Positions 2,152 to 38,642 are shown, counted from the stretch's first letter. The stretch is DNA of 38,642 nt from Deltaproteobacteria bacterium (GCA_016186995.1 JACPKQ010000030.1:1-38642); one strand, 5' to 3'. The notes: a model not told the origin generated them from the sequence alone. Numbers and translations are program-made.

Positions 2152-2244
2152 AAATGGTCAGTGTCTGGAGCGAAAGTAAAGCGGAGCTCTATGAGGCCTT
2201 GCCGAATAAAGAGCGAGCCATGAAGCGGAAGACACTGACCATTT
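2152..2244 (+). repeat. Structured interspersed repeat A, copy 1 (short form)
   Basis: A 93 bp element bounded by perfect 15 bp inverted arms, AAATGGTCAGTGTCT at 2152-2166 and its exact complement at 2230-2244. Inside the arms are the two family hallmarks, GGAGCGAAAGTAAAGCG on the left and GCGAGCCATGAAGCGGAAG on the right. Unlike the other copies it has no nested D palindrome. Its middle is a short CTCT...AGAG stem around GAGGCCTTGCC. The right flank CAAGAACCTAAG and the left flank AACCAAGGTTGT recur at other sites in the window. It lies in the gap between icd and the 2394 gene (2011-2393), which holds no other gene that I can see. Confidence 0.85.
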
Positions 2245-2316
2245 CAAGAACCTAAGTATCGAACTAAAAAAAATATGCCCCCAATTCAGAACCAAGGTTG
2301 TAGAAGAAGAATCATA

Positions 2317-2346
2317 CTGGATCCCGGGTCTTCGCCCGGGATGACA
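2317..2346 (+). repeat. Short palindromic repeat D (GGATCCCGGG...CCCGGGATGACA)
   Basis: A hairpin CATCCCGGG/CCCGGGATG with TTCG-rich loop and the conserved outer ends CTGG and ATGACA. It is one of many copies in the window with variable stem sequence and conserved ends. It lies about 48 bp upstream of the outer-membrane-like gene at 2394, so it would be in or just before the leader of that gene. Confidence 0.85.
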
Positions 2347-2393
2347 AGAGCAGGCTTTTTAAGTTTAAAAGTTCTGGTATCATGGTGTTGCTT

Positions 2394-2927
2394 ATGAAAA
2401 AATATTTTGTTTTTTATGTTTTTTTAAGTTCTATCGTTTATGCAGCTCCGCCACTCGATCCAACACCTTATTCGAGTCGCTATGAATATAAATTAGGAGT
2501 TCATGTCAATGGTGGTGGTTCCACCGGCATTATTGGAATGTCAGCTGATTGGAGTGCTTTTGAAAAATATGCTTTTCTCCTTAAAGCAGGAACAGGGGTT
2601 TATTTTAGCTCTGCTGCCTTTGAAATACGCCGTTTTCTTTTTGAAACATCACTTGCACCTTATTTTTCTTTAGGAGTAACCAGGTGGGAACAAACAGGAG
2701 CACCTGAAAAACTCAAAAACATGTTTCCACAATCTGTTGATTTAGGGCTTGTAAATAGTGATGGAACCCAAAAAAATGCATATATTTATTTAAGTACCGC
2801 ATCGCTTGGGCTTCATTACTTAAGTGATTATGGCTTTTCTGCTGCGGTAGAATTAACAGGGCTTTTTTCCTACGCTACAACAACCTTTAAACCCTGGGCC
2901 GGACTTTCACTCGGTTGGTACTTTTAA
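2394..2927 (+). CDS. Putative outer-membrane beta-barrel protein, unknown function
   Basis: No family recognised. From the chosen ATG the protein is 177 residues. It starts with a signal peptide (MKKYFVFYVFLSSIVYA, cleavage likely before APP), has alternating polar/aromatic stretches and ends in Trp-Tyr-Phe, the C-terminal aromatic typical of outer-membrane barrels recognised by BamA. An in-frame ATG 12 nt upstream would add MVLL; I prefer the later ATG because MKK begins a normal signal peptide. Neither start has a good ribosome site. The stop codon overlaps the stop of the convergent lipid kinase gene by 4 nt, so there is no terminator between them. It may be a small structural or porin-like envelope protein; this is inferred from sequence character only. 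Confidence 0.7.
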   Translation: MKKYFVFYVFLSSIVYAAPPLDPTPYSSRYEYKLGVHVNGGGSTGIIGMSADWSAFEKYAFLLKAGTGVYFSSAAFEIRRFLFETSLAPYFSLGVTRWEQTGAPEKLKNMFPQSVDLGLVNSDGTQKNAYIYLSTASLGLHYLSDYGFSAAVELTGLFSYATTTFKPWAGLSLGWYF

Positions 2928-3841
2928 CAAATAAAATGAATGCATTTATGAAGAATGTGAAAAGTGGCAGGTAACTTTCCTATAATTTCTCCATCTGCTT
3001 CAAAAAAAACCTCTTTTTCAGATTGAAATTCAAGCCAAGGAGATCTAAAAACCTCAACCTCTTTTTCTTTTAAGTGCGTTCCTTTGTAAATTTTAGGAAT
3101 GATAAAGGGAAGTTTCCATTTAGGTAACTTTTCAAGGATGACGACATCAAAAAAACCATCATCTACTTTAGCATGGGGTGCCCATTTCATTTTACCACCC
3201 GAAAACATTCCATTAGCTACAAAAATATTATGTGCCAAATATTCTCTTTCAATCTGCTCCCCTTCTTTTTTTACATGAAAAATTTGTGCCTTTGATTTTA
3301 AAAAACTTAAGGCCGAGGTAGAAAGATAAGAAGCTTTACCCAGAAAACCCTTGGTAGAACCCATGTTTTCTAAAACCTCAACTGAAAGCCCAAAACTAGA
3401 AATATTTAAAAAATAATGATGTTTTTCCAATCCTTCTTCTTCATAGTTAATCTTTCCGACATCTATTTTTTGGACCATTCCCCTTGAAAGAAGCTTTAAA
3501 ACCTCTTCATCTTTTTGAGGAAATGAAAAATTACGTGGAAAATCCCCCCCCGTGCCTAAAGGGTACATTCCTAGCAAAACAGAATCTGACAAAAGCTTTC
3601 CATTTTCAAAAAAGCCGTTAAGAACTTCATTCAGTGTCCCATCTCCACCCACTGCAATAATTTTTTCAAAACCTGTAGAAATAGCTTTTCGAGCGAGCTC
3701 GGTAGCCTCTTTAGGTTTTGTTGTATAAGCAATTTCATGATGCGGAAAAAGATCAAGCCTTGTTTTAAAGGTTTTTTTCCAAAGATCTCTACAAGCTCCG
3801 CTTGCTGCCTGTGGATTCACAATAAATTTAGTCTTTGTCAT
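2924..3841 (-). CDS. Diacylglycerol kinase-family lipid kinase (YegS/DagK-like)
   Basis: ATP-dependent phosphorylation of a lipid such as diacylglycerol or a long-chain base, at the inner face of the membrane. The 305 residues fit the DAGK catalytic family. The N-terminal strand FIVNPQAASG (6-15), nucleotide loop AVGGDGTLNEV (63-73) and LGTGGDFPRNF (95-105) are all present. The last motif is normally GTGNDFAR, so Asn is Gly and Ala is Pro here, a small departure. The C-terminal half (VANGMFSGGKMKWAP, DDGFFDVVIL, FEADGE) is the usual beta-sandwich. It starts 2 nt after the aspS stop, so it is co-transcribed with and probably translationally coupled to aspS and hisS. The lipid substrate cannot be told from sequence. 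Confidence 0.88.
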   Translation of the reverse strand: MTKTKFIVNPQAASGACRDLWKKTFKTRLDLFPHHEIAYTTKPKEATELARKAISTGFEKIIAVGGDGTLNEVLNGFFENGKLLSDSVLLGMYPLGTGGDFPRNFSFPQKDEEVLKLLSRGMVQKIDVGKINYEEEGLEKHHYFLNISSFGLSVEVLENMGSTKGFLGKASYLSTSALSFLKSKAQIFHVKKEGEQIEREYLAHNIFVANGMFSGGKMKWAPHAKVDDGFFDVVILEKLPKWKLPFIIPKIYKGTHLKEKEVEVFRSPWLEFQSEKEVFFEADGEIIGKLPATFHILHKCIHFIC

Positions 3842-3843
3842 TA

Positions 3844-5145
3844 TTAAGGTGTTATTCGAATTCGATCACGTGGATAAAAACAGGCCTCTCGAATATTTGT
3901 AAGGTTTAAAACTTTCATCGTAATTCTCTCCGCCCCGATGGCAAGTCCTCCATGAGGAGGCATTCCAAATTTAAAAATTTCTAAATAATCTTTAAAACTT
4001 TCCGGATCTAAACCCCGAGAAGCAATACTTTGAACCAACATGTCATAGTTATGAATACGCTGCCCCCCTGTTGTAATTTCAAGTCCATTAAAAATAAGAT
4101 CAAAACTATGTGTTAATCCCTTTTTTGTTTTATGCGGCATCGCATACATAGGCCGTTTTGATTGAGGATAATCATTCACAAAAACAAGCGGCATTCCATT
4201 TTCTTTATCAAAATACTCACACAGTAGTTTTTCACTGTCTGGATCAAGATCTCCGTGAACATCTTTTTTAAATTTTTTAAGAAGAATTTTACATGCCTCT
4301 TCTAAAGAAATAATAGGAATTTCTTTAAACTCAGGTAAAACATATTTAAATAAAGAAAGTTCTTTGTGGCACTCTTCCCTTACCTTACTAAACATATAAG
4401 AGAGAAGCCCCATTTCAAAACGCATGATGTCAGTTTCGTCATTAATAAAACCCATTTCAAAATCAAGACTGTAATATTCATTTAAATGGCGTGATGTATT
4501 GTGCTGCTCTGCACGATACACATGGGCCGTTTCAAAAACTCTTTCATAACCAGCCCCTACCATGTGCTGTTTATAAAACTGCGGGCTTTGAGCTAAATAA
4601 GCTTTTCTTTCAAAGTATTTCACTTGAAAAAGCTCACTCCCCCCTTCGGTTCCGGTAGCTACAATTTTAGGTGTATAAATTTCGGTGAAATCATTTTTTA
4701 AAAGATATTCTCGAAAAGATTGAATAAGTTTATTTTGAATTTTAAAAATACTAGATATTTCTTCTTGTCGAATACTTAAAGTACGATGGTCTAAAATGGT
4801 ATCTAAATTAAGATTTAAATTCTGAAGAGGTTTATTCACAAGAATGGGAAGTTGCTCATGTGCTTTTGACACAATCTCAATATGAGTGGTTTGAATTTCA
4901 TACCCAATTTTAGATCGTTTATCTTCAGCAACTTTTCCTTTGAGAATCACAAGATCTTCAAGATTAAGTTTGCGAGTATCAAAAAGAGAGGCATCCACCA
5001 CACATTGCACTGTTCCACTTCGATCGCGCAAAATAAGAAAGCTAAACTTACTTAAAACTCGAAGATTATGAACCCAACCAGCTAACTCAACTATTTTGCC
5101 AGTCGAATGACCTGCATCTTTAATAAGGACTCTTTTTTCAAACAT
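3844..5145 (-). CDS. aspS: Aspartyl-tRNA synthetase, archaeal/nondiscriminating type
   Basis: Charges tRNA-Asp with aspartate. At 433 residues it lacks the roughly 150-residue GAD insertion of the ordinary bacterial enzyme (about 590 residues) and is built like archaeal AspRS: OB-fold anticodon domain (about 1-105), then a class II core. Motif 2 includes RAEQHNTSRHLNE (211-223). Motif 3 is GGLAIGAERITMKVL, and the C-terminus FYPRDRIRITP is typical. His26 in GWVHNLR is the residue reported for archaeal enzymes that also charge tRNA-Asn; Trp is found there in discriminating enzymes. That suggests, but does not prove, an indirect Asn-tRNA route through GatCAB. hisS lies 39 bp upstream with a D palindrome between; the lipid kinase follows by 2 bp. 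Confidence 0.93.
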   Translation of the reverse strand: MFEKRVLIKDAGHSTGKIVELAGWVHNLRVLSKFSFLILRDRSGTVQCVVDASLFDTRKLNLEDLVILKGKVAEDKRSKIGYEIQTTHIEIVSKAHEQLPILVNKPLQNLNLNLDTILDHRTLSIRQEEISSIFKIQNKLIQSFREYLLKNDFTEIYTPKIVATGTEGGSELFQVKYFERKAYLAQSPQFYKQHMVGAGYERVFETAHVYRAEQHNTSRHLNEYYSLDFEMGFINDETDIMRFEMGLLSYMFSKVREECHKELSLFKYVLPEFKEIPIISLEEACKILLKKFKKDVHGDLDPDSEKLLCEYFDKENGMPLVFVNDYPQSKRPMYAMPHKTKKGLTHSFDLIFNGLEITTGGQRIHNYDMLVQSIASRGLDPESFKDYLEIFKFGMPPHGGLAIGAERITMKVLNLTNIREACFYPRDRIRITP

Positions 5146-5160
5146 ATGTCACCGACCTCA

Positions 5161-5213
5161 GTGTCATTCCCGCGGCTTCCTCTGTCATTCCCGCGGCTCC
5201 GGCGGGAATCTAA
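5161..5213. repeat. Palindromic repeat D, one and a half copies at the hisS 3' end
   Basis: A partial unit GTGTCATTCCCGCGGCTTCC is followed at once by a complete unit, TGTCATTCCCGCGGCTCC with the complementary CGGCGGGAATC. The complete unit overlaps the end of hisS and supplies its last roughly nine residues and its stop codon. The tandem partial copy suggests a duplication or a second insertion at the same place. Confidence 0.88.
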
Positions 5214-6438
5214 AATAAGTTTCAATACGATCCAATCCTATTTCTTCTTGGCTCGATTCCTTCATATCTTTAACGAGAACTTTTTTATTTCGCAATTCAT
5301 TTTCACCAAGAACAAGTGCATAACGCACTTTTTCCTTATCAGCTGCTCGAAGCTGGGCTTTAAAGCTTTTGTCATCAAAAGAAAAAAGTGTTCGAACTCC
5401 TGATCTTCTCAAAGATGAAGCTATGCTTAGTGTTTGTGTTTTTGCCTCCGCCCCCAAGCCTACAATAAAAACACCCTCTAATTCTTTTTTAGGATCTTCC
5501 ACTAAAAGCATCAGGCGCTCCATACCAGCAGCACATCCTACGGCAGGAACATGTGGACCACCCAGTGTTTCAACAAGGTTGTCGTAACGCCCACCTCCAC
5601 AAATAGCATCTTTAGCCCCCAAATCTTGGCTAACAAATTCAAAAGCAGTACGTGTATAATAATCAAGCCCTCTTACAATTGTAGAATCAATCTCAAAAGA
5701 AACACCCGCCGCTTTTAAATATTCTTGAACTTTTCCAAAATGTTTTTCATCTTCTGACCCAAGAAAATCTAAAATTCGAGGGGCACTTTTCATTATTTTC
5801 TGTATGGATTCCACTTTAGAATCAAAACACCGTAGCGGATTTGTTTTAAGCCTCCCCTTGCTTTCAGGGTCTAAATCGTTTTCATATTTTTCTAAATAAG
5901 CAGTCAATTTCTTAAGATAGATAGTTCTTGATTCACGACTTCCTAAAGAATTAATAAAAAGTTTAAAAGGAATTTCTAATATCGTGTATAAGTCTGAAAA
6001 AACCTGGATCACTTCAGCATCTGCTTGTGGGTCATCTGTTCCGAGCACTTCAACCCCATATTGAAAAAATTGGCGCTGTCTTCCTTTTTGAGGTCTTTCG
6101 TAACGAAACAAAGGACCAAAATAAAAATATTTTTTTACAGATTTTTCTCCATAAATTTTATTTTCGATATAATTTCTAACAACAGACGCGGTTACTTCAG
6201 GCCTTAAAGTAATGGATTCTTCGTTTTTATCCAAAAACGAGTACATTTGTTTTTGGACAACTTCAGTATCTTTACCTGTACTTCGTGCAAAAAGTTCTGT
6301 TTTCTCTAAACAAGGGGTTTCAACAAATTGAAAGCCACATTGCTCTAAATAGTGACAGATTTTCTTTTGATGAAAAAACCACTTTTCACTCTCGGGCGGA
6401 AAAAGATCCATCATTCCTTTTAGTTTTTGAAACATCAT
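5185..6438 (-). CDS. hisS: Histidyl-tRNA synthetase
   Basis: Charges tRNA-His with histidine. 417 residues, the usual length for the bacterial enzyme. Class II motif 2 with FGPLFRYERPQKGRQRQFFQ (107-126), the histidine-specific RGLDYYTRTAFEF (256-268), GGGRYDNLVETLGG (281-294) and motif 3 GCAAGMERLML (301-311) are intact. A C-terminal anticodon-binding domain follows (about 325-410). The last residues, FRFPPEPRE, and the stop are read from a palindromic repeat, so the native C-terminus has been replaced or extended. Two adjacent ATGs can start the gene; the upstream GATGAG is a weak ribosome site. It is first in the hisS-aspS-lipid kinase series. Confidence 0.95.
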   Translation of the reverse strand: MMFQKLKGMMDLFPPESEKWFFHQKKICHYLEQCGFQFVETPCLEKTELFARSTGKDTEVVQKQMYSFLDKNEESITLRPEVTASVVRNYIENKIYGEKSVKKYFYFGPLFRYERPQKGRQRQFFQYGVEVLGTDDPQADAEVIQVFSDLYTILEIPFKLFINSLGSRESRTIYLKKLTAYLEKYENDLDPESKGRLKTNPLRCFDSKVESIQKIMKSAPRILDFLGSEDEKHFGKVQEYLKAAGVSFEIDSTIVRGLDYYTRTAFEFVSQDLGAKDAICGGGRYDNLVETLGGPHVPAVGCAAGMERLMLLVEDPKKELEGVFIVGLGAEAKTQTLSIASSLRRSGVRTLFSFDDKSFKAQLRAADKEKVRYALVLGENELRNKKVLVKDMKESSQEEIGLDRIETYFRFPPEPRE

Positions 6439-6615
6439 TTTCTCATCATGCCCAAAAAGTGGCTCAAGATCAATGCCATTTCACACTCGTGTTCAAAAAG
6501 CCTGCTTTTCTTTATAGCTAAGAACCTTGCTTCTGAGTAGGGAGGGTGTTTACCCAGTCCCTACTCTCTCATGGACTCAAAATAAAGTTATTCTATTATT
6601 CGTGACTATGTGAAG

Positions 6616-6773
6616 AAATGGTCTCAAGTCTGGAGTGGAAGTAAAGCGCAGCTCACGGTTTGTAAATATTTAGAATCTCGGGTCCCGGACAGTGCTTTAA
6701 CACTTACGGGACGACAGAAAAATTGATGTAACAAACTACAGCGAGCCATGAAGCGGAAGACTTGAGACCATTT
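6616..6773 (+). repeat. Structured interspersed repeat A, copy 2, with nested D palindrome
   Basis: A 158 bp element with perfect 16 bp inverted arms: AAATGGTCTCAAGTCT at 6616-6631 and its complement at 6758-6773. The inner arm sequence differs from copy 1 on both sides together. The left core GGAGTGGAAGTAAAGCGCAGC and right core ACAGCGAGCCATGAAGCGGA are conserved. A second stem GGTTTGT/ACAAAC (near 6658 and 6731) leads to a nested D-type hairpin (CCCGGACAGTGC...CACTTACGGG, about 6673-6714). It occupies most of the gap 6439-6885. Downstream at about 6790-6825 lies a broken D-like piece (AGATTCCCGCTTGTACTGCC). Confidence 0.88.
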
Positions 6774-6852
6774 CAAGGACTTAAGTGCCGAATCTAAATT
6801 TCTAGATTCCCGCTTGTACTGCCATTTTGTACCTATACAGAAGAACGATATT

Positions 6853-6861
6853 TGTTATACT
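6853..6861 (+). promoter_or_regulatory. Extended -10 promoter for the 6886 gene
   Basis: TGTTATACT: an extended -10 (TGn plus TATACT, 6856-6861) 24 nt before the ATG, with no well-spaced -35. The leader contains AAGGGGG about 7 nt before the start codon, a strong ribosome site. Confidence 0.5.
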
Positions 6862-6885
6862 AGAAAAAGATAAGGGGGATAAAAA

Positions 6886-7455
6886 ATGAAAAAAATACTT
6901 TTAGTTTTTACATTAGGGGTTTTTCTTGCCTCACAAGAGGCTTCTGCAAATTGGAGTTTAGGGCTTCAAGGCCATTCAGGTTGGCTTATCAATGACTCTG
7001 CCACAAGGCATTATAAAAATCCCCAATTTGGTGGGGGTGCTTATCTTTACTACGCACCAGAAATATTTTGGGATTTTGTAGACCTTGGCATACGTAGTGC
7101 TTACACACATTTTCGAGCTAAAACATCATCAACAGCTCAAGAGATCGATGCCATAGATGCACTTCTGTCCGGAAGACTTGTTTTTTTAGATGAACCCGGA
7201 GAGGATTGGGCTATTGATCTTCATCTTGATATTGGCGCTAATTATATGATGCCTTATTCTTCTGGAGGAAAAGACAAACTTAATTTTGCCTATGCCATTG
7301 GAACACAACTTCGTTACTTTGCTTTTGGGGAACACTCCATTGGACTTTTTGTAAGATTCCACCAAGTTTTAGGTGATGTGACAGTTGCAAGTAATACAAA
7401 AGTGAGTAATTTTAACTCATTTCAAGGGGGCATATCTATAGAGTTTAGCCTTTAA
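6886..7455 (+). CDS. Putative outer-membrane beta-barrel protein, unknown function
   Basis: No named family recognised. 189 residues with a clear signal peptide (MKKILLVFTLGVFLASQEASA, cleavage before NWS). The rest consists of short amphipathic strands rich in Gly and aromatics (GAYLYYAPEIFWDFVDLGIR, FAYAIGTQLRYFAFGEHSIG), as in small 8-stranded barrels of the OmpA/OmpW kind. It ends GGISIEFSL; the last residue is not aromatic but the penultimate pattern fits a final strand. It is a single gene with its own extended -10 promoter and strong ribosome site. It is similar in layout, but not obviously in sequence, to the barrel-like protein at 2394. Function unknown. Confidence 0.72.
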   Translation: MKKILLVFTLGVFLASQEASANWSLGLQGHSGWLINDSATRHYKNPQFGGGAYLYYAPEIFWDFVDLGIRSAYTHFRAKTSSTAQEIDAIDALLSGRLVFLDEPGEDWAIDLHLDIGANYMMPYSSGGKDKLNFAYAIGTQLRYFAFGEHSIGLFVRFHQVLGDVTVASNTKVSNFNSFQGGISIEFSL

Positions 7456-7512
7456 TTTCAATATGTTATGTAATTTTGGCTACTTTATCTACAGGCAAAA
7501 CTGAACGAGCAT

Positions 7513-7541
7513 TTGACATTTTTGTTTTTTTCTGCTAATAT
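7513..7541 (+). promoter_or_regulatory. Near-consensus sigma70 promoter
   Basis: TTGACA (7513-7518), a 17 bp spacer and TAATAT (7536-7541) preceded by TGC, an extended -10. This is the best-matching vegetative promoter in the window. Transcription should start at about 7548, directly before the hairpin at 7559, and the next coding sequence is the 26-codon ORF at 7640. Confidence 0.75.
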
Positions 7542-7547
7542 TTTAAT

Positions 7548-7606
7548 CATATAGTGGGGGCTGTAAGAAGGTCATGAAGTGATTTTCTTGCAGCCTTTTT
7601 TTTAGG
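7548..7606 (+). ncRNA. Predicted short terminated transcript or leader attenuator
   Basis: A transcript from the 7513-7541 promoter would run into a strong intrinsic terminator almost at once. GGCTGTAAGAA (7559-7569) pairs with TTCTTGCAGCC (7586-7596) with a single G-U, the stem can be extended inward by GTCA/TGAT around a TGAAG loop, and eight or more T follow (7597-7604). The product would be an RNA of about 55 nt. Either it is a small RNA in its own right, or a constitutive terminator/attenuator controlling the mini-ORF at 7640. No known family was recognised. Confidence 0.5.
7559..7604 (+). terminator. Rho-independent terminator
   Basis: An 11 bp stem (GGCTGTAAGAA/TTCTTGCAGCC, one G-U) followed by a run of T. 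It could also end transcription of the 6886 barrel gene, which stops about 100 bp upstream, but a strong promoter lies in between. Confidence 0.7.
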
Positions 7607-7639
7607 TTGTGGTGGAAGTTGAAAAAAAAGGAGTGAAAC

Positions 7640-7720
7640 ATGAGGCGGCTTGTTGAAGATATCGTAGCATTGATTGTAGGCATGAGTATTACTCTCATCT
7701 TTTGGGTGCTTTTAAGTTAA
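7640..7720 (+). CDS. 26-residue membrane mini-protein (hypothetical)
   Basis: A short ORF from ATG at 7640 to TAA at 7718-7720, preceded by an excellent ribosome site, AAGGAGTGAAAC ATG. The product begins MRRLVEDIVALIVG and ends in a hydrophobic stretch (SITLIFWVLLS): two N-terminal arginines and one membrane-spanning helix of about 17 residues, as in small bitopic regulators of membrane complexes. It lies downstream of a consensus promoter and a terminator hairpin, and its stop is 3 bp from the convergent comEC stop. No family recognised. Support is the ribosome site, the promoter and the coherent membrane helix; without homologues it could still be chance. Confidence 0.5.
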   Translation: MRRLVEDIVALIVGMSITLIFWVLLS

Positions 7721-7723
7721 CAG

Positions 7724-9913: not shown

Positions 9914-9939
9914 CTTTTCAAGCCTTAAATTCTTAATTA

Positions 9940-10093
9940 CAGAGATAGGGATAGTACTTCCATCGGGTACGGCATCACTTTTTTCCTGCGAAAAAGTGTG
10001 CCTCGCGTCTCAGTCAATCTGCCGCATATACTATGCGGACCAAGCCAGATTTCCTTCCGACACGCCCCTCTGTAAGTACTATCCCTATCTCTG
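9940..10093 (+). repeat. Structured interspersed repeat B, copy 1 (MITE-like)
   Basis: A 154 bp element with perfect 19 bp inverted arms, CAGAGATAGGGATAGTACT at 9940-9958 and its complement at 10075-10093. Inside are a hairpin CACTTTTTTC/GAAAAAGTG-like (about 9975-9998), the constant stretch GCCTCGCGTCTCAG, and a second hairpin in which AATCTGCCGCAT pairs around ATACT with ATGCGG and CAGATT. The layout is outer stem plus two hairpins, tRNA-like in outline but not a tRNA. The outer arm ends (CAGAG/CTCTG) differ from copies 2 and 3 (AAAAG/CTTTT), with matching changes on both sides. Confidence 0.9.
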
Positions 10094-10144
10094 AAAAACC
10101 TTTTAATTTGTGATTAAATGCCAGTGTCTTCACGTAAACACGAC

Positions 10145-10300
10145 ATAAAGTTGCCTAGTGTGTTTTGAAGGCCGTCTCGGAGGCCTAAGCGGGCATGGAT
10201 TTTTTACGAAGTAAAAAAGAGCGAGGCCGAGAGGCGTGCGACATTTTCCTCGCAGGGGAAAATGATCGCTGTGCCTGAAAAATATACTAGGTAACTTTAT
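10145..10300 (+). repeat. Structured interspersed repeat C
   Basis: A 156 bp element with imperfect inverted arms of about 24 bp (ATAAAGTTGCCTAGTGTGTT at 10145 and the near-complement AATATACTAGGTAACTTTAT ending at 10300). Its interior holds three hairpins: AGGCC...GGCCT, TTTTTTAC-GAA-GTAAAAAA and CATTTTCC...GGGAAAATG. The stretch GAGGCCTAAGC and AAAGAGCGAGGCC resemble the middle of A copy 1. A 20 bp piece of its right end recurs at 32777-32798. It is GC-rich compared with its surroundings, and no coding frame is convincing. At 10116-10143, just outside, lies what looks like an A-element arm (AAATGCCAGTGTCT) with its flank. Confidence 0.75.
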
Positions 10301-10384
10301 GAAAACTAACCATTTAAGTAAATCAGGCACAACCGCTTTTTACTGCCATTTGCCATAGGCTTTGCTAAAGTGTTAGAGAAAGCC

Positions 10385-11866: not shown

Positions 11867-12159
11867 ACTTGAAGGCCAGGCCAGTTCAGGGACAGCTATT
11901 TTTTGGGCATTTAGATGAGTCCCCAATGCATAATGGTTGAGCAGGAGTGTTTAGCGCATACGCATAGCTAAAAAGGGTGTTATTTTAAGATGTTAAGCAT
12001 TTATACCACCCATCCCCTCTAATTTGACTATTTTTTAAACAAGTGTCTTATGTGTATCAATAAGTCAGATATTAATATTTCATAGCAAATTCATATACAT
12101 ATAAAAATTTTTTGTTTTTGGCACCCCCTTTGCTCACTTATAGGATGACGGGAGGCCGA
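11867..12159 (+). other. Intergenic region, AT-rich, with probable promoter
   Basis: No gene and no copy of the A-E repeats seen. A plausible promoter for the downstream secreted-protein pair is TTGACT (12024-12029), 16 bp spacer, TCTTAT (12046-12051), giving a leader of about 100 nt. The leader ends in GGAGG 4 nt before the ATG at 12160. The segment 12050-12120 is very AT-rich. Confidence 0.4.
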
Positions 12160-17326: not shown

Positions 17327-17482
17327 AAATGATCTCAAGTCTGGAGCGGAAGTAAAGCGCAGCCCACGGTTTATAATAAGACAGAATACTGGATCCCGGA
17401 TAGTGCTTCGCACTTCCGGCATGACAGAGAATCCATGTGGGACAACTACAGCGAGCCATGAAGCGGAAGACATAGATCATTT
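17327..17482 (+). repeat. Structured interspersed repeat A, copy 3, with nested D palindrome
   Basis: About 156 bp. Arms AAATGATCTCAAGTCT (17327-17342) and AGACATAGATCATTT (17468-17482) pair at both ends but not in the middle: the outer change GATC matches on both sides, while the inner part has decayed. Cores GGAGCGGAAGTAAAGCGCAGC and ACAGCGAGCCATGAAGCGGA are conserved. The second stem is CCCAC/GTGGG (17373/17438 region) and the apical nested D palindrome is GGATCCCGGATAGTGC...GCACTTCCGGCATGACA. It fills the gap between tsaB and rlmN. Confidence 0.87.
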
Positions 17483-29334: not shown

Positions 29335-29343
29335 TCATGGCTA

Positions 29344-29371
29344 GTTCTACTAAACTTGTGAAATCAGTCAA
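29344..29371 (-). promoter_or_regulatory. Possible valS-thiN promoter, near-leaderless
   Basis: On the minus strand TTGACT (29371-29366), 16 bp, TAGAAC (29349-29344). The expected start at about 29337 leaves about 3 nt before the ATG at 29334, which has no ribosome site. Confidence 0.35.
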
Positions 29372-29572
29372 GAAATGGAGGGCACAGAAAAGGGGTACAT
29401 CTCAAAATGCATAGTTTTTAGGCGAGGGTGTTAGGAAGTTCATCACAACTATAACCAGTTGATTTCATTTCACTATTATTCAATTTCGTGGGCTTTGAAC
29501 ACTATATGAACAAAAATACCCCCTTCAAAAAAATAAACGTCAATAATATCAATAGTTTATAAAAATAAAACC

Positions 29573-29588
29573 TGGCACAGGTGTTGCT
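29573..29588 (+). promoter_or_regulatory. Sigma54 (RpoN) -24/-12 promoter
   Basis: TGGCAC-AGGTG-TTGCT: the GG and GC doublets have the required spacing, and the -24 and -12 hexamers match consensus almost fully. Expected start at about 29599, 10 nt before the lipoprotein ATG, with AAGG in the short leader. Such promoters need an AAA+ enhancer-binding activator. Confidence 0.7.
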
Positions 29589-29608
29589 TTTTATAAGGAT
29601 AAGGCCGT

Positions 29609-29953
29609 ATGACACAATTATTTTCGTTTAAAGGACTCTTTATTCTTCGGATGATACTACTTCTTATTTTCTCACCCCTTCTTTTTACTTCTTGTGGTTT
29701 ACCAGGGTCGGATCATGAAGTTTTATCCAAATCCATTACTTTAGGTAATGGAAATTATCCTATTGCTCCAACTGCAATCTCTCTTGGGGGGACTTCTTAT
29801 CAGCACTACACACAAACAAACTCGAGTGGGAACAATCAAAGCCTCTGCCCACAAGGAACAACAAACATTGCTCCTCGGGCACAGATTTCTGTTTCACAGA
29901 CTCCCATGGGTTATCTTTATGATGAAGACCTTTCTTCAAGATGCCAAACCTAA
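29609..29953 (+). CDS. Small lipoprotein of unknown function
   Basis: 114 residues. The N-terminus ends in a lipobox, LLFTSCG, with Cys31 as the lipidated residue, after a basic/hydrophobic stretch (FILRMILLLIFSPL). The mature part is about 84 residues, Ser/Thr/Gly/Asn-rich, with two further Cys (CPQG and SSRCQT) that may form a disulphide. No family recognised. It is the only gene in the window behind a good sigma54-type promoter with a near-perfect match, so its expression is probably conditional. It converges on the RND exporter gene, with a 37 bp gap. Confidence 0.7.
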   Translation: MTQLFSFKGLFILRMILLLIFSPLLFTSCGLPGSDHEVLSKSITLGNGNYPIAPTAISLGGTSYQHYTQTNSSGNNQSLCPQGTTNIAPRAQISVSQTPMGYLYDEDLSSRCQT

Positions 29954-29990
29954 ATCTGGAATTCCTCAAAGTGTTATTGAAATTGGTTTT

Positions 29991-32459: not shown

Positions 32460-32589
32460 CCCTTAACTTATCGAAAAAAGTAGCTTTTTTCTTTAATTCT
32501 GAAGGTTTGCTAGCAGCTCTAAGTTCTTAAAATAGCTCAATAACTTTAAGTTCTTGAAATGGCATAATAACAATAATCTTAGGTTCTTA

Positions 32590-32747
32590 AAATGGTTACT
32601 ATCTTTCGCTCCATGGCTCGCTGTAGTTGTCCCACATGAATTCTTCGTTATCCCGTAAGTGCTAAAGCACTGTCCGGGATGAGAGTATTTTATCTTAATG
32701 ACAAACCGTGTGCTGCGCTTTATTTCCGCTCCAGACAGTAACCATTT
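32590..32747 (-). repeat. Structured interspersed repeat A, copy 4, with nested D palindrome
   Basis: 158 bp in reverse orientation. Arms AAATGGTTACTATCT (32590-32604) and AGACAGTAACCATTT (32733-32747) pair except for one position that is a G-U in RNA read from the minus strand. Arm sequence is again different from copies 1-3. Family cores and the nested hairpin ATCCCGTAAGTGCTAAAGCA...GTCCGGGAT are present. Left flank TTAGGTTCTTAA, right flank TTACATAAACACG. Confidence 0.88.
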
Positions 32748-32806
32748 TTACATAAACACGAATTCAAAATCAAATTATCCAGTATATTTTTCAGGCGCAT
32801 ATAATC

Positions 32807-32960
32807 AAAAGATAGGGATAGTGCTTACAGAGGGTCGTGTCGGAAGGTAATCTGGCTTGGTCCGCATAGTATATGCGGCAGATTACCTGAGACGCGAGGC
32901 GCACTTTTTCGCAGGAAAAAAGTGACGCCGTACCCGATGGAAGTACTATCCCTATCTTTT
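32807..32960 (-). repeat. Structured interspersed repeat B, copy 2
   Basis: 154 bp in reverse orientation to copy 1. Arms AAAAGATAGGGATAGTGCTT (32807-32826) and AAGTACTATCCCTATCTTTT (32941-32960), one G-U or mismatch. The internal hairpins and the GCCTCGCGTCTC stretch (as complement) are conserved. It lies 59 bp from A copy 4, in the order B then A when read on the minus strand. Confidence 0.9.
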
Positions 32961-32969
32961 GTGGCCATT

Positions 32970-33929
32970 TCAAGAACCTGAGTGAGGATTGACAGGAATC
33001 AAGACACCAATAAAAGTAAAGCAAAGCATTCTTAAACGCCTTAAAAGCGGAAAACTCACAGCTAAAAAAGGAGAAAACCCCACATAAGTAAAAAGAAGAA
33101 AGAGGCTTCCTTCTGAAGCGCCCAGACTTCCAGGGATAAAACTTGAAAAGGTGTGCACTACAATCATAAAAGCCCCTAGTGCAAAAGCCGCTAAAAATGA
33201 AATAGGTTCTCCTAAAAAATGAAGTAAAAGATAAATTTCAAAAACACCAAGAATCCATCCTAAAAGGTGAAAAAATAAAGAAATACAAAAATCTTTTTTT
33301 CTTTTTTGAAGAAAGTTGGAAGAAATACTATCCAACTCCACAAATTTTTCTTGATACATCTCAAGCCATTTTATTTTTAAAAATGAGTTTAATTTATTAA
33401 TAAAAAAGAAAACCTTCCCCCTATTTTTAAAAATAAAAAAACTTAAACTAATAAAAACAAAACTAATAGGGATAAGTAATAACCGAATGTGGAATGGGTT
33501 TTTAAAATAAAAACTTGCTGCGAACGTTCCTAAACCCACAAAAATAATGCCACTATAAATATGAAGTGTTTTATCCAAGTAAACAGAAGAAATATTTTCT
33601 TTTAAAGAATAAAAGTTTTTTAAATAAAAAATCCGCAAAGGTTCACCTCCTGAAGAAAAAAAGGGTGTTATCATATTGTAGGTTTCAGCCTTCAATTTGA
33701 TTTTAAACAATGTCCACAAAGAAGGCTTTCGCCCCAGTAAAAAACTCCATGCATAAGTGTTACAAAGATGCCACAAAAAAGCCACAATGAGAATAATGGA
33801 AAACTTAAAACCTACTTTCTGAAAAGAGTCGTAAATATTTTCAAAACCCAATTTGTAGCACAGAAAAAAGATAAGGCTTAAACCCACAAGCAGAAGAAAA
33901 AAATGCCCATTAAACAGTTTGTGCTTCAT
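32970..33929 (-). CDS. YbhN/LPG-synthase-type flippase-like membrane protein
   Basis: Integral membrane protein of the UPF0104/lysylphosphatidylglycerol synthase transmembrane family, 319 residues with about 8 hydrophobic helices. TYNMITPFFSSGGEPLRIFYL (about 85-105) is the family motif (GE-hR block) and SFIPGSLGASEGSLFLLF (about 268-285) the second. Members move or modify lipids, often beside glycosyl- or phospho-transferases. The start overlaps the upstream fusion gene by 20 nt, so the genes are coupled. The last residues (NPHSGS) and the TGA stop come from an A-type repeat flank (AGGTTCTTGA), so the native C-terminus was probably altered. Confidence 0.85.
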   Translation of the reverse strand: MKHKLFNGHFFLLLVGLSLIFFLCYKLGFENIYDSFQKVGFKFSIILIVAFLWHLCNTYAWSFLLGRKPSLWTLFKIKLKAETYNMITPFFSSGGEPLRIFYLKNFYSLKENISSVYLDKTLHIYSGIIFVGLGTFAASFYFKNPFHIRLLLIPISFVFISLSFFIFKNRGKVFFFINKLNSFLKIKWLEMYQEKFVELDSISSNFLQKRKKDFCISLFFHLLGWILGVFEIYLLLHFLGEPISFLAAFALGAFMIVVHTFSSFIPGSLGASEGSLFLLFTYVGFSPFLAVSFPLLRRLRMLCFTFIGVLIPVNPHSGS

Positions 33930-35358
33930 ACTTTCTAAGAAGAACTAAAGAGTAAAGGCACACAACAAAACACCCCGCAATTAAAAGATAAAAAATAGGA
34001 AGCCATTGTTTAAAAAGCGCTAAAATAAAAAACGAAAAGGCATAAAAATCACGCTTTACAACAAAACTAAAATAACGAGGTAAAAAACTTAAAAAAACTT
34101 TTTTTTGTCTTCCTAAATTAAAAACAGCTCTTTCTATCAAAACAAGCGTTCCATGAGATTTATTCTTTTTTAAATAAAAATACATACTGAGAAGTGCTAT
34201 CACTAAAAAGAAAAAACCAATGCTCGAAAGAAATAAATAATAAGAAGAATGATAATAAGAAGAGAGTCCAATGCCAAAGCTTAAAACAAAAAGAACATAC
34301 ACGACATTATCTGACAAAGTATCAACCCAAGCCCCTTTTTCACTTTGCTCAAACTTAAGCTTAGCAACCTCTCCATCGCACCCATCTAAAACAGAAGCAA
34401 GCTGAAAGAAAAAAAAGGCCTTTAAAAAATCTCCACTCAAGGCACATGCACAAGAAAAAAGCCCCACCACTAAACCACATAAACTTACATACAGGGGTGT
34501 TATGGGAAGGTAAGAAAGCAGCCTACTGATCCACAAAGAAATAGGACGATTAAGATTTTTTGAAATAATACCATCTGTGGGTTTCCTGCACCATTTAAGA
34601 AGAAGTTTTTCTCCATGCTTAAGAGAAGAAGGCGTGTCTACATCTTGCCATTCAAAAGCGCCTATATCATAACATCTTATTTTTCTAAGCTCTGCTAAAT
34701 ACTTAACTGTGTTAATCAGTGATAAAGAAAAATCTCTTTTATCTTTTAAATAACCTAGCACCTTAAATATAAAAGGTGTGCAATAAAAAACTCCTGTATC
34801 AATCGCATTATACTTTTCTATTTCTTTACCTGTGTTTTTAATTTTAAAATCTTCCTGGTCTACCTTACTTGCATCTTCAAGATCAAAAATAGAGCTCATT
34901 TTAGAATCTATAGCTAATACAACCTCATCAGGGTCTCTATTATCTGCTTTCGATCCTCCGTTCTTCCTCTCCCTTGATGGGAGAGGACTGAGGAGAGGGT
35001 GAACAGTAGCTTGAATAAAATTTTCTAAAAATCCAGGTTGTAAAATATGATCTCCCATAAGAAGAATGAACGGATCGTCCACATAAGGCCTAGTTTTTAA
35101 AAGTGAATAACCATTTTCTTTGTGCCAATCTTCATTCACAACCCACTGAATACGAATATCTTTATATTTTTTATTAATATAATATTGAACAGCGTCTCCC
35201 CGATAACCCACAACGATAACAAAATCTTCAATGTGAGCTTTCTTGGCAGTTAAAATGCTTCGTTCTAAAAGAGTCAGCCCGCAAATATGAGTAAGAGACT
35301 TTGGTTTTTTACTCTGGAGCCTTTCACCTCGTCCTGCAGCTAATATAACAGCCTTCAT
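33910..35358 (-). CDS. Fused nucleotidyltransferase and CDP-alcohol phosphotransferase
   Basis: 482 residues, two domains. The N-terminal sugar/polyol-phosphate nucleotidyltransferase (1-240) has VILAAGRGERLQ, KPKSLTHICG and LLMGDHIL. The C-terminal membrane domain (about 265-475) has the CDP-alcohol phosphotransferase motif DGCDGEVAK plus GAWVDTLSD (about 323-349), with all four Asp in place (the usual Arg is Lys). The same domain order occurs in bifunctional inositol-phosphate cytidylyltransferase/di-inositol-phosphate-phosphate synthases. Here it may activate a phospho-alcohol with CTP and transfer it to a second alcohol or lipid; the substrate is not known. Residues about 118-131 contain an in-frame E palindrome (SPLPSRERKNGG). 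Overlaps the radical SAM gene by 4 nt and the flippase gene by 20 nt. Confidence 0.88.
   Translation of the reverse strand: MKAVILAAGRGERLQSKKPKSLTHICGLTLLERSILTAKKAHIEDFVIVVGYRGDAVQYYINKKYKDIRIQWVVNEDWHKENGYSLLKTRPYVDDPFILLMGDHILQPGFLENFIQATVHPLLSPLPSRERKNGGSKADNRDPDEVVLAIDSKMSSIFDLEDASKVDQEDFKIKNTGKEIEKYNAIDTGVFYCTPFIFKVLGYLKDKRDFSLSLINTVKYLAELRKIRCYDIGAFEWQDVDTPSSLKHGEKLLLKWCRKPTDGIISKNLNRPISLWISRLLSYLPITPLYVSLCGLVVGLFSCACALSGDFLKAFFFFQLASVLDGCDGEVAKLKFEQSEKGAWVDTLSDNVVYVLFVLSFGIGLSSYYHSSYYLFLSSIGFFFLVIALLSMYFYLKKNKSHGTLVLIERAVFNLGRQKKVFLSFLPRYFSFVVKRDFYAFSFFILALFKQWLPIFYLLIAGCFVVCLYSLVLLRKYEAQTV
34966..35001. repeat. Palindromic repeat E inside the fusion gene, in frame
   Basis: CCTCTCCC-TTGAT-GGGAGAGG hairpin followed by ACTGAGGAGAGGGTG. 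It encodes a hydrophilic insert (SPLPSRERKNG) in the nucleotidyltransferase domain after the LLMGDHIL strand, and keeps the frame. Confidence 0.85.
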
Positions 35359-36317
35359 GAAAGTAAATCCCTCACACGCCCCACATTCATGGGTGCTTGT
35401 ATCTCAGCGCGGCAACTCATCCAACACTCAACGCACTGTGTGGGTTGAAAAACATTTTTCCCCAAACCATAATCTTCATGATTAAAAAGTGGTTTTTTTT
35501 CAGAACATCTTTTAACTTGTCCGTCTGGGGTTACTTGAACCCAACTTAAACCCGCTTTGCACCCAGAAATTTTATTTCCTTTAAAATAAGAAGAAGCTTG
35601 ATCAAAAAAATAATCCCCCGTACTAATATTTTTTAATTTTCTTTTAAGTTTTTTAAGTTCTTTTAAAGCATCTTCAAGTTTTTTTCGATTATTTTCTGAA
35701 ATCATTCCCTTTCTATTTCCATTTTTACCAGAGTAATAAGAACTATAATTAATATAAGCCCCCCACTTTTTTGCTAAATGCGCTAGTGGGACAAGTTCAT
35801 CCACATTAGAGTCCATAATAATGGTATTCAGTGTAACACGGTCAAAGTATTTTTTTGAAATCTGCGGAATCAGTTCTTCCATTTTTGAGAAAACGCCTGG
35901 TAAATTTCTCACTTTTTCGTGAAAAGAATGTGCATAATCTAAAGAAACGCAAAACTGGGAAACCCCACTTTGATGAAGCCTTTTTATTTTATCCATATCA
36001 ACTAAAGAAAAATTACTGATAAGACTTACATAAGAATGGGGAACTGCTTTTCTGATTTTTGAGATGTATGCGGGTAAATCTTTTCTTAAAAGAGGTTCTC
36101 CACCTGAAATTGTAATTAAAACTGGATTCATTCGTTTTAAAAAATGAAAAAGAGTATCTCTCGTATCTTCAAAAGGTTTTTCCTTCCAATAATTACAAAA
36201 AGGGCATTGTGCATTACAGGCCATAGAAATTTCAAGATTAATGTGTAGAGGCTTTTTCTGAAACTTAAGATAGAGCCCCTTTGAACCAAGAACGACAAGC
36301 TTGTAAAAAGGGTTCAT
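35355..36317 (-). CDS. Radical SAM protein with SPASM/twitch-type C-terminus
   Basis: About 320 residues from MNPFYKLVVLGSKG (ATG at 36317). The frame is open for 60 more codons upstream, but these read through a palindromic repeat and into the antiporter gene, so I reject them. The 4Fe-4S motif is CNAQCPFC (Cys 34, 38, 41), followed by TISGGEPLLRKDL. The C-terminus has a second Cys set (SGCKAGLSW, KRCSEKK, CVECWMSCRAE), as in SPASM or twitch proteins binding an extra cluster. Downstream it overlaps the nucleotidyltransferase fusion by 4 nt. It could modify a lipid head group or a peptide; the operon partners favour the first. Substrate not known. Confidence 0.87.
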   Translation of the reverse strand: MNPFYKLVVLGSKGLYLKFQKKPLHINLEISMACNAQCPFCNYWKEKPFEDTRDTLFHFLKRMNPVLITISGGEPLLRKDLPAYISKIRKAVPHSYVSLISNFSLVDMDKIKRLHQSGVSQFCVSLDYAHSFHEKVRNLPGVFSKMEELIPQISKKYFDRVTLNTIIMDSNVDELVPLAHLAKKWGAYINYSSYYSGKNGNRKGMISENNRKKLEDALKELKKLKRKLKNISTGDYFFDQASSYFKGNKISGCKAGLSWVQVTPDGQVKRCSEKKPLFNHEDYGLGKNVFQPTQCVECWMSCRAEIQAPMNVGRVRDLLS

Positions 36318-36380
36318 ACAAAGTGGAGTATACAGTTTACGGTAGGCACTGTATAGTGTACATAGTTCGGAATATATGTA

Positions 36381-36420
36381 TTCTGGATTCCAGATAATGC
36401 TTTGCATTTCTGGAATGACT
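36381..36420. repeat. Palindromic repeat D between divergent genes
   Basis: TTCTGGATTCCAGA and TCTGGAATGACT around TAATGCTTTGCATT. It lies in the 109 bp gap between the radical SAM start and the antiporter start, probably inside the antiporter leader, where it would place a hairpin 6 nt before the ATG. Confidence 0.87.
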
Positions 36421-36426
36421 TTTTTT

Positions 36427-37722
36427 ATGAAAAATATTTTTTCTATTTTATTTTTAATCGGTGCTCCTTTGTTCGCATGTGCAAGTGGTGGACTCATTGA
36501 TCCTTTAGAGCACCAACTTCCTTTTATTATTACCCTTCTTTTGGTGGCAAAATTAGGTGGGGCTCTTTTTGCAAAAATTCATCAACCTGCTGTTTTAGGA
36601 GAGCTTATTTGTGGTGTTCTATTAGGAAACCTTGCTTATCTTTCAGGAGATTTTATTAGTTTCTTTGAACCCGTTAAAGATGAAGAATTTATTCGAACCA
36701 TTTCTGAAATGGGTGTTATTATTCTTCTTTTTCAAGTGGGTCTTGAAACAAAGCTTTCGTCCATGCTTAAGGTAGGGCTTTCTTCTTTTTTTGTTGCTTG
36801 CATTGGGGTCTTTTTTCCTTTTGTTTTTGGTTATCTTATAAGCTCCTGGTTAGGTTATGGTGCTAACAGTACAGTTCATATTTTTATAGGAGCAACGCTG
36901 ACAGCAACGAGCGTTGGAATTACAGCGCGAGTCTTACAAGATTTAAAAAAACTTGATCTTGATGAATCAAGAATCGTTCTGGGAGCGGCTGTTATCGATG
37001 ATGTTATTGGTCTTATTATTTTGGCCGTTGTTTCTGCTCTTGCTTCAAGCTTTTTAAATGGTGGTGAGGCTCATATTTCTTTTTTCTCAGTTCTTGTGAT
37101 TACAGCCAAAGCAGTTGGTTTTTTGGTGAGTGCTATTTTCTTAGGTCATTATTTAGCTCCGTGGATTCTCAACCTTTCGAAATATTTACGTGTTGAAGGA
37201 ATGAGCCTTGTTATGGCATTAGGCTTTGCTTTTACTTTGGCTTATATTTCTCACATGATAGGTCTTCATTTTATAGTAGGCGCTTTTGCTGCAGGGCTTA
37301 TTCTTGAAGAGGCTCATTTTGTGGGTTTTCATTATCACGAAAACTTAGAAAGAATTATCACCCCACTTTCAGATTTTTTCGTTCCCTTCTTTTTTCTTCT
37401 TATTGGAATGAAGGTTTCTCTTTCTGTGTTTACCCATCTTTCCGTAGTGACCATTGCTCTTGTTTTAAGTGCAGTTGCCGTTGTTACTAAACTTGCAGCA
37501 GGGCTGGGTGTTGTAGGAAAAAACATTGATCGGCTTTCTGTAGGTATTGGAATGATCCCACGCGGTGAAGTGGGGCTTATTTTCGCAAGCATTGGTCTTG
37601 GAACGGGTGTTTTAAAGCAAGATGTTTATTCTGCTATCGTTGTCATGGTCATGCTCACCACTTTTGTGACCCCACCCCTTCTTAAATGGTCTCTTTCAAG
37701 GAAAGAAGTGTCAAAACCTTGA
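36427..37722 (+). CDS. CPA2-family cation/proton antiporter
   Basis: Inner-membrane Na+ or K+/H+ antiporter of the Kef/NapA/NhaS3 type. 431 residues from ATG 36427 (MKNIFSILFLIGAPLFACA, signal-like); a start 51 nt upstream is rejected because it would translate a D palindrome. About 12 helices. HQPAVLGELICGVLLGNL (helix 2 region), ATLTATSVGITARVL and GAAVIDDVIGLIILAVV, with the ion-binding Asp-Asp pair, are the family motifs, and GMIPRGEVGLIFASIGLG is typical of the C-terminal half. No TrkA-N/RCK domain is attached. The ATG has no good ribosome site and sits 6 nt after the palindrome. Confidence 0.93.
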   Translation: MKNIFSILFLIGAPLFACASGGLIDPLEHQLPFIITLLLVAKLGGALFAKIHQPAVLGELICGVLLGNLAYLSGDFISFFEPVKDEEFIRTISEMGVIILLFQVGLETKLSSMLKVGLSSFFVACIGVFFPFVFGYLISSWLGYGANSTVHIFIGATLTATSVGITARVLQDLKKLDLDESRIVLGAAVIDDVIGLIILAVVSALASSFLNGGEAHISFFSVLVITAKAVGFLVSAIFLGHYLAPWILNLSKYLRVEGMSLVMALGFAFTLAYISHMIGLHFIVGAFAAGLILEEAHFVGFHYHENLERIITPLSDFFVPFFFLLIGMKVSLSVFTHLSVVTIALVLSAVAVVTKLAAGLGVVGKNIDRLSVGIGMIPRGEVGLIFASIGLGTGVLKQDVYSAIVVMVMLTTFVTPPLLKWSLSRKEVSKP

Positions 37723-37842
37723 CATAAACAGTCAATAAAATCAACAACTTAAATGTTTTTTTAAGGTTTTAAAACAGAATAAAAATAGAAAAATGTTGAT
37801 TATATGCATGTTTTAGGAATGATCTAACTTAGAATTCACTTC

Positions 37843-37858
37843 TGGTACGGATTATGCA
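37843..37858 (+). promoter_or_regulatory. Sigma54-like -24/-12 promoter
   Basis: TGGTACG-GATT-ATGCA: GG and GC doublets at the right spacing, two deviations from consensus (T in TGGTAC, A in ATGCA). Start expected near 37869, 5 nt before the ATG at 37874. A weaker match than that at 29573. Confidence 0.5.
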
Positions 37859-37873
37859 AGATAGAAGTTTTAG

Positions 37874-38299
37874 ATGCATGTCATATCCTCTCCTAAAATC
37901 ACCATTCTTCCACAAAAAAAATGTTTCACTATTCTTTCTTATGAAATGAATAAAGCAAAAGAAGAAAACCACCCCTTATCTGTGCTTTTACTTACTTTTG
38001 AAAAACCAGCAACCATTACTTATCAAACGCTCCATCACATTTTTGATTCTCTTCAAAAAACGCAGTTTCCTTGTGCTCGAGTGATTCAGTTTGGAAGCCA
38101 CCAACTTCTTATGGTTTTAAGAAATAAAAACCTTGAAGAAGCTAAGGTATTAGCCTTTTCTGTTAAAAGTATTGTCGAGGATTCCCAATTCTTTCTTCCG
38201 CCTTTAAGGGTTAACATTGGAGTTTCAAATTATTATTCTCCTCAGAAAGAGCCCATAGAAGTTTTCATTCGAACAAAACTCAAACAAGCCGCTCTATAA
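37874..38299 (+). CDS. Small degenerate GGDEF-like protein
   Basis: 141 residues, cytoplasmic, no signal peptide. The order of segments resembles a GGDEF domain: an N-terminal helix and HPLSVLLLTFE (where active domains read plsvll-D-iD), a helix, ARVIQFGSHQLLMVL where the GGDEF loop should be (FGSHQ replaces GGDEF), a helix LEEAKVLAFSVKSIVE, and RVNIGVSNYYSP...EVFIRTKLKQAAL like the end of the fold. The catalytic and Mg-binding residues are missing, so it would not make c-di-GMP; it could bind a nucleotide or be a regulatory partner. Family assignment is pattern-based and uncertain. It lies behind a sigma54-like promoter and 151 bp after the antiporter gene. Confidence 0.55.
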   Translation: MHVISSPKITILPQKKCFTILSYEMNKAKEENHPLSVLLLTFEKPATITYQTLHHIFDSLQKTQFPCARVIQFGSHQLLMVLRNKNLEEAKVLAFSVKSIVEDSQFFLPPLRVNIGVSNYYSPQKEPIEVFIRTKLKQAAL

Positions 38300-38353
38300 T
38301 TTACCCACAGCTTTAAGTTCTTAAAAATGGTTACAAACTAATCGTATTTTCAT

Positions 38354-38507
38354 AAAAGATAAGGATAGTACTTCCCTCGGGTACGGCGTCACTTTTTTCC
38401 TGCGAAAAAGTGCGCCTCGCGTCTCAGGTAATCTGCCGCATATTCTATGCGGACCAAGCCAGATTACCTTTCGACACGACCCTCTGTAAGCACTATCCCT
38501 ATCTTTT
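38354..38507 (+). repeat. Structured interspersed repeat B, copy 3
   Basis: 154 bp. Arms AAAAGATAAGGATAGTACTT (38354-38373) and AAGCACTATCCCTATCTTTT (38488-38507) pair with two imperfections. The internal hairpins are intact: AGGTAATCTGCCGCAT and ATGCGG...CAGATTACCT, and CACTTTTTTCCTGCGAAAAAGTG in outline. It is followed 33 bp later by A copy 5, the same B-then-A order as copies 2 and 4. Confidence 0.9.
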
Positions 38508-38540
38508 ACCCTATAAGTTTACTCTCGAGTTTATGTTAAA

Positions 38541-38642
38541 AAATGGTTACTATCTGGAGCGGAAGTAAAGCGCAGCCCACGGTTTGTAAATATTCAAAAC
38601 TGTGCATCCCGGACAGTGCTTTAGCACTTACGGGATAAAGAG
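38541..38642 (+). repeat. Structured interspersed repeat A, copy 5, cut by the window end
   Basis: Left arm AAATGGTTACTATCT (38541-38555), core GGAGCGGAAGTAAAGCGCAGC, CCCACGGTTTGT stem side and the nested D hairpin (ATCCCGGACAGTGCTTTAGC...ACTTACGGGAT). The right half lies beyond the window, so pairing of its arms cannot be tested. Confidence 0.8.

Follow-up and report, generated by a model that had tools for sequence, protein, structure and literature searches.

Integron attC sites work as folded single strands; few of their bases are fixed, their stem is variable, and their conserved boxes lie at the foot of the hairpin. The repetitive extragenic palindromic (REP) elements of E. coli are intergenic, dispersed imperfect hairpins in which an unpaired part is conserved and a single strand is active (PMC8266576). 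REPs measure 20-50 nt, carry GTAG or a similar tag at their start and are associated with a Y1 transposase. Here we analysed a hairpin repeat, family A, in a 38,642-nucleotide stretch of DNA from a Deltaproteobacteria bacterium (GCA_016186995.1, JACPKQ010000030.1:1-38642). This stretch (the window) is one entire contig, C25, of a genome of 1.68 Mb in 30 contigs. Like REPs, the element is an extragenic, many-copy imperfect palindrome with conserved unpaired positions and one active strand (PMC8266576). Unlike REPs, it has no tag and usually no Y1 gene, its core recurs across phyla and its arms vary freely; unlike attC, it has its fixed part in the middle of the hairpin. It is REP-like by behaviour, yet by the tests reported below it is not a member of the REP/RAYT group (RAYT, REP-associated tyrosine transposase). 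We read the copies, with middling confidence, as strand-specific hairpins of a non-autonomous, REP-like family that has not been described before; their fixed core would be read by a putative factor, and the family would spread within genomes and then persist.

The part shared by the copies is 5'-GGAARUAAAGCGCAG...CGAGCCAU(GAA/UCC)-3', clamped by stems that vary from copy to copy; RUAAAGCGCAG and CGAGCCAU are fixed across families. A pattern scan of named genomes (the deltaproteobacteria GWA2_38_16 and RIFCSPHIGHO2_02_FULL_40_11, Coxiellaceae metagenome-assembled genomes, Gammaproteobacteria P_S1_bin.12 and two Woeseiaceae metagenome-assembled genomes) provided 26 stretches with the consensus order 5'-clamp-GGAAGUAAA-GC-GCA-GC-apex-GC-GA-GC-CAUGAA-clamp-3'. 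From the outside in, the rod consists of outer arms, a clamp, an asymmetric internal loop, two G-C pairs, a small second loop (GCA/GA) and a variable apex (3-30 nt in other genomes). Recognition by a protein or RNA would be the natural reading of the constant core.

In a second subtype (B), which carries GGAAAUAAA with CAUUCC or CAUUUC, the tandem G.A positions of subtype A become Watson-Crick pairs, so the loop edge itself covaries. Column pairs 17-74 and 18-73 are mostly of G.A type in subtype A and G-C, C-G, G-U or A-U in other copies, while pair 19-72 is A.G or A-U. We considered AGUA/GAA as a loop-E (sarcin-ricin) motif, but the pairing between columns 17 and 74 and the existence of subtype B led us to discard this. 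Like kink-turns and related tandem-G.A RNA loops, subtype A has GA/GA opposite a CAU bulge beside G-C clamps; unlike them, the other strand carries several extra nucleotides and subtype B has Watson-Crick pairs in place of the tandem G.A. Viewed at the level of sequence, the tandem G.A pairs after a three-nucleotide bulge that mark a kink-turn are present in subtype A and replaced by standard pairs in B. The stretch GUAAAGCGCA presumably has a 10-nt likeness to 16S rRNA.

The two arms of the rod change together. In an alignment of 57 copies, 346 double-change cells were still paired (shuffled mean 108.9), 83.1% of cells were paired (at most 42.1% for slid partners) and the covariation score was 0.566 (at most 0.155 in controls). 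An earlier set of 29 copies gave 126 double-change cells vs. 48.8 after shuffling, with 79.8% paired vs. at most 45.0% for slid partners. In RIFCSPHIGHO2_02_FULL_40_11 (G004), the arms match their own partner and not the partner of sister copies (mean score 53.7 own vs. 10.6 crossed). A sequence-only reading of the window had noted arms that change between copies but keep pairing, and both alignments bear this out far above the shuffled and slid controls. A few recent duplications, which that reading had named as a possible refutation, do not explain the copies, as these occur in different phyla with different arms. The same reading had taken parallel change as the signature of a selected hairpin; the paired change is real, but alone it is insufficient as proof of selection, because the arms of one genome (G1246) are too clean and template switching is known. 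The fixed core together with the strand bias described below is better evidence for selection.

The ten copies of G1246 (within L381-L393) have arms of 39 to at least 71 bp, nine of them free of mismatches and the tenth with one G-T, and both arms are rewritten between copies. Thirty of 38 arm columns are variable and there is one non-Watson-Crick cell in 380; own-arm pairing reaches 37.9 of 38, compared to 22.3 with swapped arms. Two of the perfect arms (L381, at least 71 bp, and L383) extend into sequence absent from the other copies. The arms in G004 are locus-specific and nearly perfect over 20-40 bp. Stepwise compensation via G-U would leave more intermediates, so the G1246 arms are too clean for it; one arm seems to be copied onto the other. 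Template switching in replication creates and repairs stems in one event (PMC8794818), and the long perfect arms and blockwise double changes resemble such quasipalindrome mutations. However, template switching explains the arms only, and cannot hold a non-palindromic core or give a G-U strand bias. Simultaneous two-sided change with no broken intermediates was found in G1246 and only partly in Woeseiaceae orthologs. A different hairpin of G004 (L080), whose loop TCATGGGCCCCTCCGCCCGG...CCTCCCATTC is unrelated, likewise has arms specific to its locus, 26 bp long.

The paired arms contain 109 G-U against 20 A-C overall, which indicates that the core-carrying strand must fold. This G-U excess is pronounced in Woeseiaceae (59:6 among 40 distinct arms, over 17 vs. 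4 positions) and in Coxiellaceae, where the count comes partly from fixed subfamily positions, making Woeseiaceae the cleaner set. The smaller sets of distinct arms go in the same direction but are weak or not significant (10:3 in the window's own genome, 11:5 in G002/G004/G005/G266 and 13:7 in P_S1). Under RNA as well as DNA parameters, the fold of the plus strand is also more stable than that of the complement in Woeseiaceae, Coxiellaceae and the own genome. Since the bias does not depend on the flanking-gene arrangement, the working strand is set by the element itself and not by its neighbours. The working form would be RNA or single-stranded DNA, both of which are compatible with the strand data. 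The bias might alternatively stem from mutation that is itself strand-biased. A function tied to the replication strand is unlikely, since orientations are mixed along one 0.9 Mb contig.

Elements sit in orthologous gaps of different species. In nine ortholog pairs the core showed two differences in 234 positions, while 29 arm pairs had changed (17 double compensated, six to G-U and six broken or not kept). In 21 Woeseiaceae ortholog pairs, whose flanking genes are 68-87% identical, 214 of 400 arm pairs had changed (114 on both sides with pairing kept, 41 on one side with pairing kept, and 59 with pairing lost) and the core showed 32 differences in 540, about a third of them from two doubtful pairs (L207/L213). 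The core is not repairable from a partner arm and is nearly unchanged beside unalignable intergenic DNA, which indicates purifying selection in place. A small number of arm alleles recur in Coxiellaceae, so some arm changes there may instead come from exchange among sister copies.

The element is mostly intergenic. Gene calls from a simple in-house caller placed the Woeseiaceae copies in 59 convergent, 31 co-directional antisense, 12 co-directional sense and seven divergent gaps; since genomes contain convergent and divergent gaps in equal numbers, chance does not account for 59:7. The right-hand gene usually stops no more than about 20 nt from the arm, which places the element just past stop codons. 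No such placement rule was found in Coxiellaceae or in the own genome.

Presence across bacteria is patchy, and most relatives lack the element. Matches to R1 or R2 were found in 52 of 107 Woeseiaceae genomes (up to 41 copies per genome) and not in the other 55, a split in which weak matches may have been lost. The element was found in four of 36 Coxiellaceae genomes (at least 29-36 copies in each of the four), in five of 369 genomes of a Gammaproteobacteria sample, in two of 398 of a wider phylum sample and in three of 369 of the own phylum, all within the own class. All these copy and host counts are lower bounds, as only some candidates per genome were scored and R1 misses subtype B (e.g. 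in G005). GWA2_38_16 (G002) and G004, of the same class as the own genome and of other families, share its core; their outer stems, 20-40 bp long, are entirely different. As many of the hosts are metagenome bins, single contigs could be misassigned, although dozens of copies on many contigs argue against general misassignment. The patchy presence, together with an arm and apex consensus that differs from genome to genome, suggests occasional transfer followed by local multiplication. Phages and plasmids were rejected as carriers: viral contigs had no exact-pattern match, and plasmids and phages only chance-level partial matches.

Within the window, both cores occurred at the positions given by the sequence-only reading (GGAGCGGAAGTAAAGCGCAGC five times with 0-2 mismatches, ACAGCGAGCCATGAAGCGGA four times, and neither in any of 100 shuffles), and a covariance search, which that reading had proposed, recovered the identical five copies. 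Copy 1 (2152..2244, plus strand) has arms AAATGGTCAGTGTCT/AGACACTGACCATTT and a short apex (R2 covariance match 2156-2240, 45.5 bits). Its core, supported by pattern and R2 matches, has a 5' half at 2170..2187 (GC-GAAAGTAAA-GC-GGA-GC) and a 3' half at 2213..2226 (GC-GA-GC-CATGAA-GC), both on the plus strand. Copy 2 (6616..6773, plus strand) has arms AAATGGTCTCAAGTCT/AGACTTGAGACCATTT and a second stem GTTTGT/ACAAAC (R2 6621-6768, 42.0 bits), with pattern-matched core halves at 6635..6652 and 6741..6754 (plus strand). Copy 3 (17327..17482, plus strand; R2 17331-17478, 34.6 bits) has pattern-matched core halves at 17346..17363 and 17451..17464 (plus strand). Copy 4 (32589..32747, minus strand; R2 32594-32743, 43.0 bits) has arms AAATGGTTACTGTCT/AGATAGTAACCATTT with one G-U and the loop variant AATA. 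Copy 5 (38541..38642, plus strand; pattern match, R2 38545-38642) consists of the 5' part alone, as it is cut by the contig end of the assembly.

The arm pairs were as read before: TCAGTGTCT/AGACACTGA, TCTCAAGTCT/AGACTTGAGA and TTACTGTCT/AGATAGTAA, the last with one G-U. Copy 3 had been called partly decayed; it rather looks chimaeric, its left arm belonging to the TCTCAAGTCT class and its right arm to the AGACATAGA class, whose partner elsewhere in the own genome is TCTATGTCT (L003). The internal loop had been said never to vary and is nearly constant, but copy 4 has AATA instead of AGTA and copy 1 has GCGAAAG. The apical palindrome, previously counted as part of the rod, is instead a separate repeat nested in the loop. 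Copy 1 has an apex without an inner palindrome, and the apex of copy 2 (6680..6716, plus strand), as read from the sequence, holds an inner palindrome of another repeat family, common to many own-genome copies. This inner palindrome, ATCCCGGACAGTGCTTTAGCACTTACGGGAT, lies inside family A apices at 6680-6716, 17388-17427 and 32649-32681, and related palindromes were found outside family A in the own genome too. A second, larger repeat of about 150 nt, with several hairpins and copies 93-97% identical, is present at 9943-10090 (plus), 32807-32963 (minus) and 38351-38507 (plus).

The own genome holds about 60 copies of the element. The 3' core AGCGAGCCATGAAGCG occurred, with up to three mismatches, at 67 places vs. 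one for the reversed pattern, and a DNA search gave 42 matches genome-wide. The arm classes GGTTACTATCT, GGTCAGTGTCT, GGTCTCAAGTCT and GGTCTATGTCT, and the quite different GCTAACCTTTCAAATTTTGC, each have their own complement. Some places contain the 3' half alone, joined to other repeats (mosaic and half copies); mosaic joins fall at GATGAC|AGCGAGCC. The flank motif AAGAACYTAAG is repeated after most family A copies of this genome (e.g. 2245-2258 and 6774-6786 in the window) and adjoins other repeats as well. Three own-genome hairpins with the loop GCACGTTNNGGA (L042, L044 and L045) have arms that vary between copies yet pair, and are possibly a second family with rewritten arms.

The element matched no described family. 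Rfam 15 at gathering thresholds gave no match in the window and none at the element in six host loci, with only far sub-threshold matches in a permissive scan. The 3' core sequence occurred in none of the searched open-access papers, a broader sequence search gave short unrelated matches only, and no literature on Woeseiaceae with palindromic repeats was found. This agrees with the sequence-only reading, which had not recognised the family and had seen no RAYT in the window. The Y1 transposase (PF01797) is absent from the whole own genome; it matched in five of 14 genomes examined, one of which (G001) lacks the element. Reverse transcriptase (PF00078), expected in the host of a retroelement such as a group II intron or retron, was likewise missing in the own genome, in G002, G004 and G005, and in those Woeseiaceae-family genomes that were tested. 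Both enzymes were thus rejected as partners, being absent from the own genome and most hosts. Of the genes mapped at element clusters (own contigs C7, C19 and C22, G002 contig C18 and Woeseiaceae), those run against Pfam were housekeeping, transport or signalling genes or belonged to no known family; with such ordinary genes, the clusters were rejected as REPtron-like loci. GTAG, CGTC or GTAC at the hairpin foot (20 of 223 elements) was not clearly above control (11 of 223), and the attC boxes RYYYAAC and GTTRRRY occurred together in one of 223.

In the reading we prefer, the core strand would fold into the rod as RNA or single-stranded DNA, and the fixed double loop would be the recognition site of a putative trans-acting factor, the arms merely presenting it; recognition of the folded plus strand by such a factor is the most likely use of the fixed core. 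Copies would multiply inside a genome, each genome having its own arm and apex consensus, and would occasionally move between distant bacteria, landing between genes and persisting there for long. Two processes would share in keeping the arms complementary: selection for folding, and the copying of one arm onto the other in replication (template switching) or in dispersal. The data establish the fold, which strand forms it, its spread, its long stay at orthologous sites and the two-sided changes of the arms; the factor, mobility as such and the working form are what we infer. A bolder version, offered only tentatively, is a cross-phylum system in which an enzyme or RNA-binding protein reads the folded single strand via the double loop, and each round of dispersal or replication rewrites one arm, giving locus-specific, always perfect arms. 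Several results weigh against the preferred reading. No enzyme partner was found and the genes near element clusters are ordinary. No target-site duplication was detected, as the longest common word of the 12-nt flanks was not above that of mismatched pairs. The empty-site comparison gave no clean empty sites, the intergenic DNA of the compared species being too diverged; in Coxiellaceae it gave filled sites, diverged sites and one site with apparent outer-arm remnants alone, with no clean insertion boundary. Persistence at orthologous sites is longer than a purely selfish element would show, and the post-stop, convergent placement in Woeseiaceae could reflect a 3'-end function.

Such placement would suit a structured RNA acting in place, a protein-binding transcript hairpin (factor-dependent terminator, RNase landing site or mRNA 3'-end protector) selected site by site, which we consider rather unlikely. 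The near-constancy of the core at orthologous sites whose arms and flanks have diverged, and the excess of G-U over A-C, as for RNA stems, would fit it as well. However, the G-U strand is the same in elements sense and antisense to their neighbours (51:7 in the Woeseiaceae antisense '--' class), which means that the elements cannot as a rule be transcribed from the neighbouring gene; no placement rule holds in Coxiellaceae or the own genome, the U-tract of an intrinsic terminator is lacking (T4 past the right arm in only three of 114 Woeseiaceae copies), and copy numbers and arm consensus are genome-specific. It is improbable that the core alone is functional and the arm match is a mutational by-product of fork template switching at the hairpin, with no selection for pairing. 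The clean, swap-intolerant arms of G1246, the reach of L381 and L383 into sequence of their own and the locus-specific arms of G004 favour it, as does the ability of template switching to create and repair stems (PMC8794818), but copying alone gives no strand bias, whereas G-U is about five times as frequent as A-C overall and ten times as frequent in Woeseiaceae, and Woeseiaceae arm length is narrow (median 26, middle half 24-29). An ordinary family of REPs or bacterial interspersed mosaic elements mobilised by RAYT (TnpA-REP), or a miniature inverted-repeat transposable element (MITE) of a known insertion sequence, would share the dispersed intergenic imperfect hairpin, conserved unpaired part and single active strand of E. 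coli REPs (PMC8266576), and mosaic and half copies do occur. We regard it as very improbable, given that PF01797 is missing from the own genome and most hosts, that foot tags are not clearly above control and that target duplication is lacking; moreover, the conserved terminal inverted repeats of a MITE are not found, as it is the centre that is fixed and the ends that differ, both among families and among copies.

The element forms a large, high-copy family, not listed in Rfam or in the searched open-access papers, that is present in two far-apart bacterial lineages. Its fixed core and rewritten arms make it a natural test bed for stem evolution by single G-U steps vs. one-event template copying. 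A transposase in the role of the putative factor would be a REP-type mobiliser distinct from RAYT; with an RNA-binding protein in that role, the element may define a genome-wide 3'-end or intergenic regulon in Woeseiaceae.

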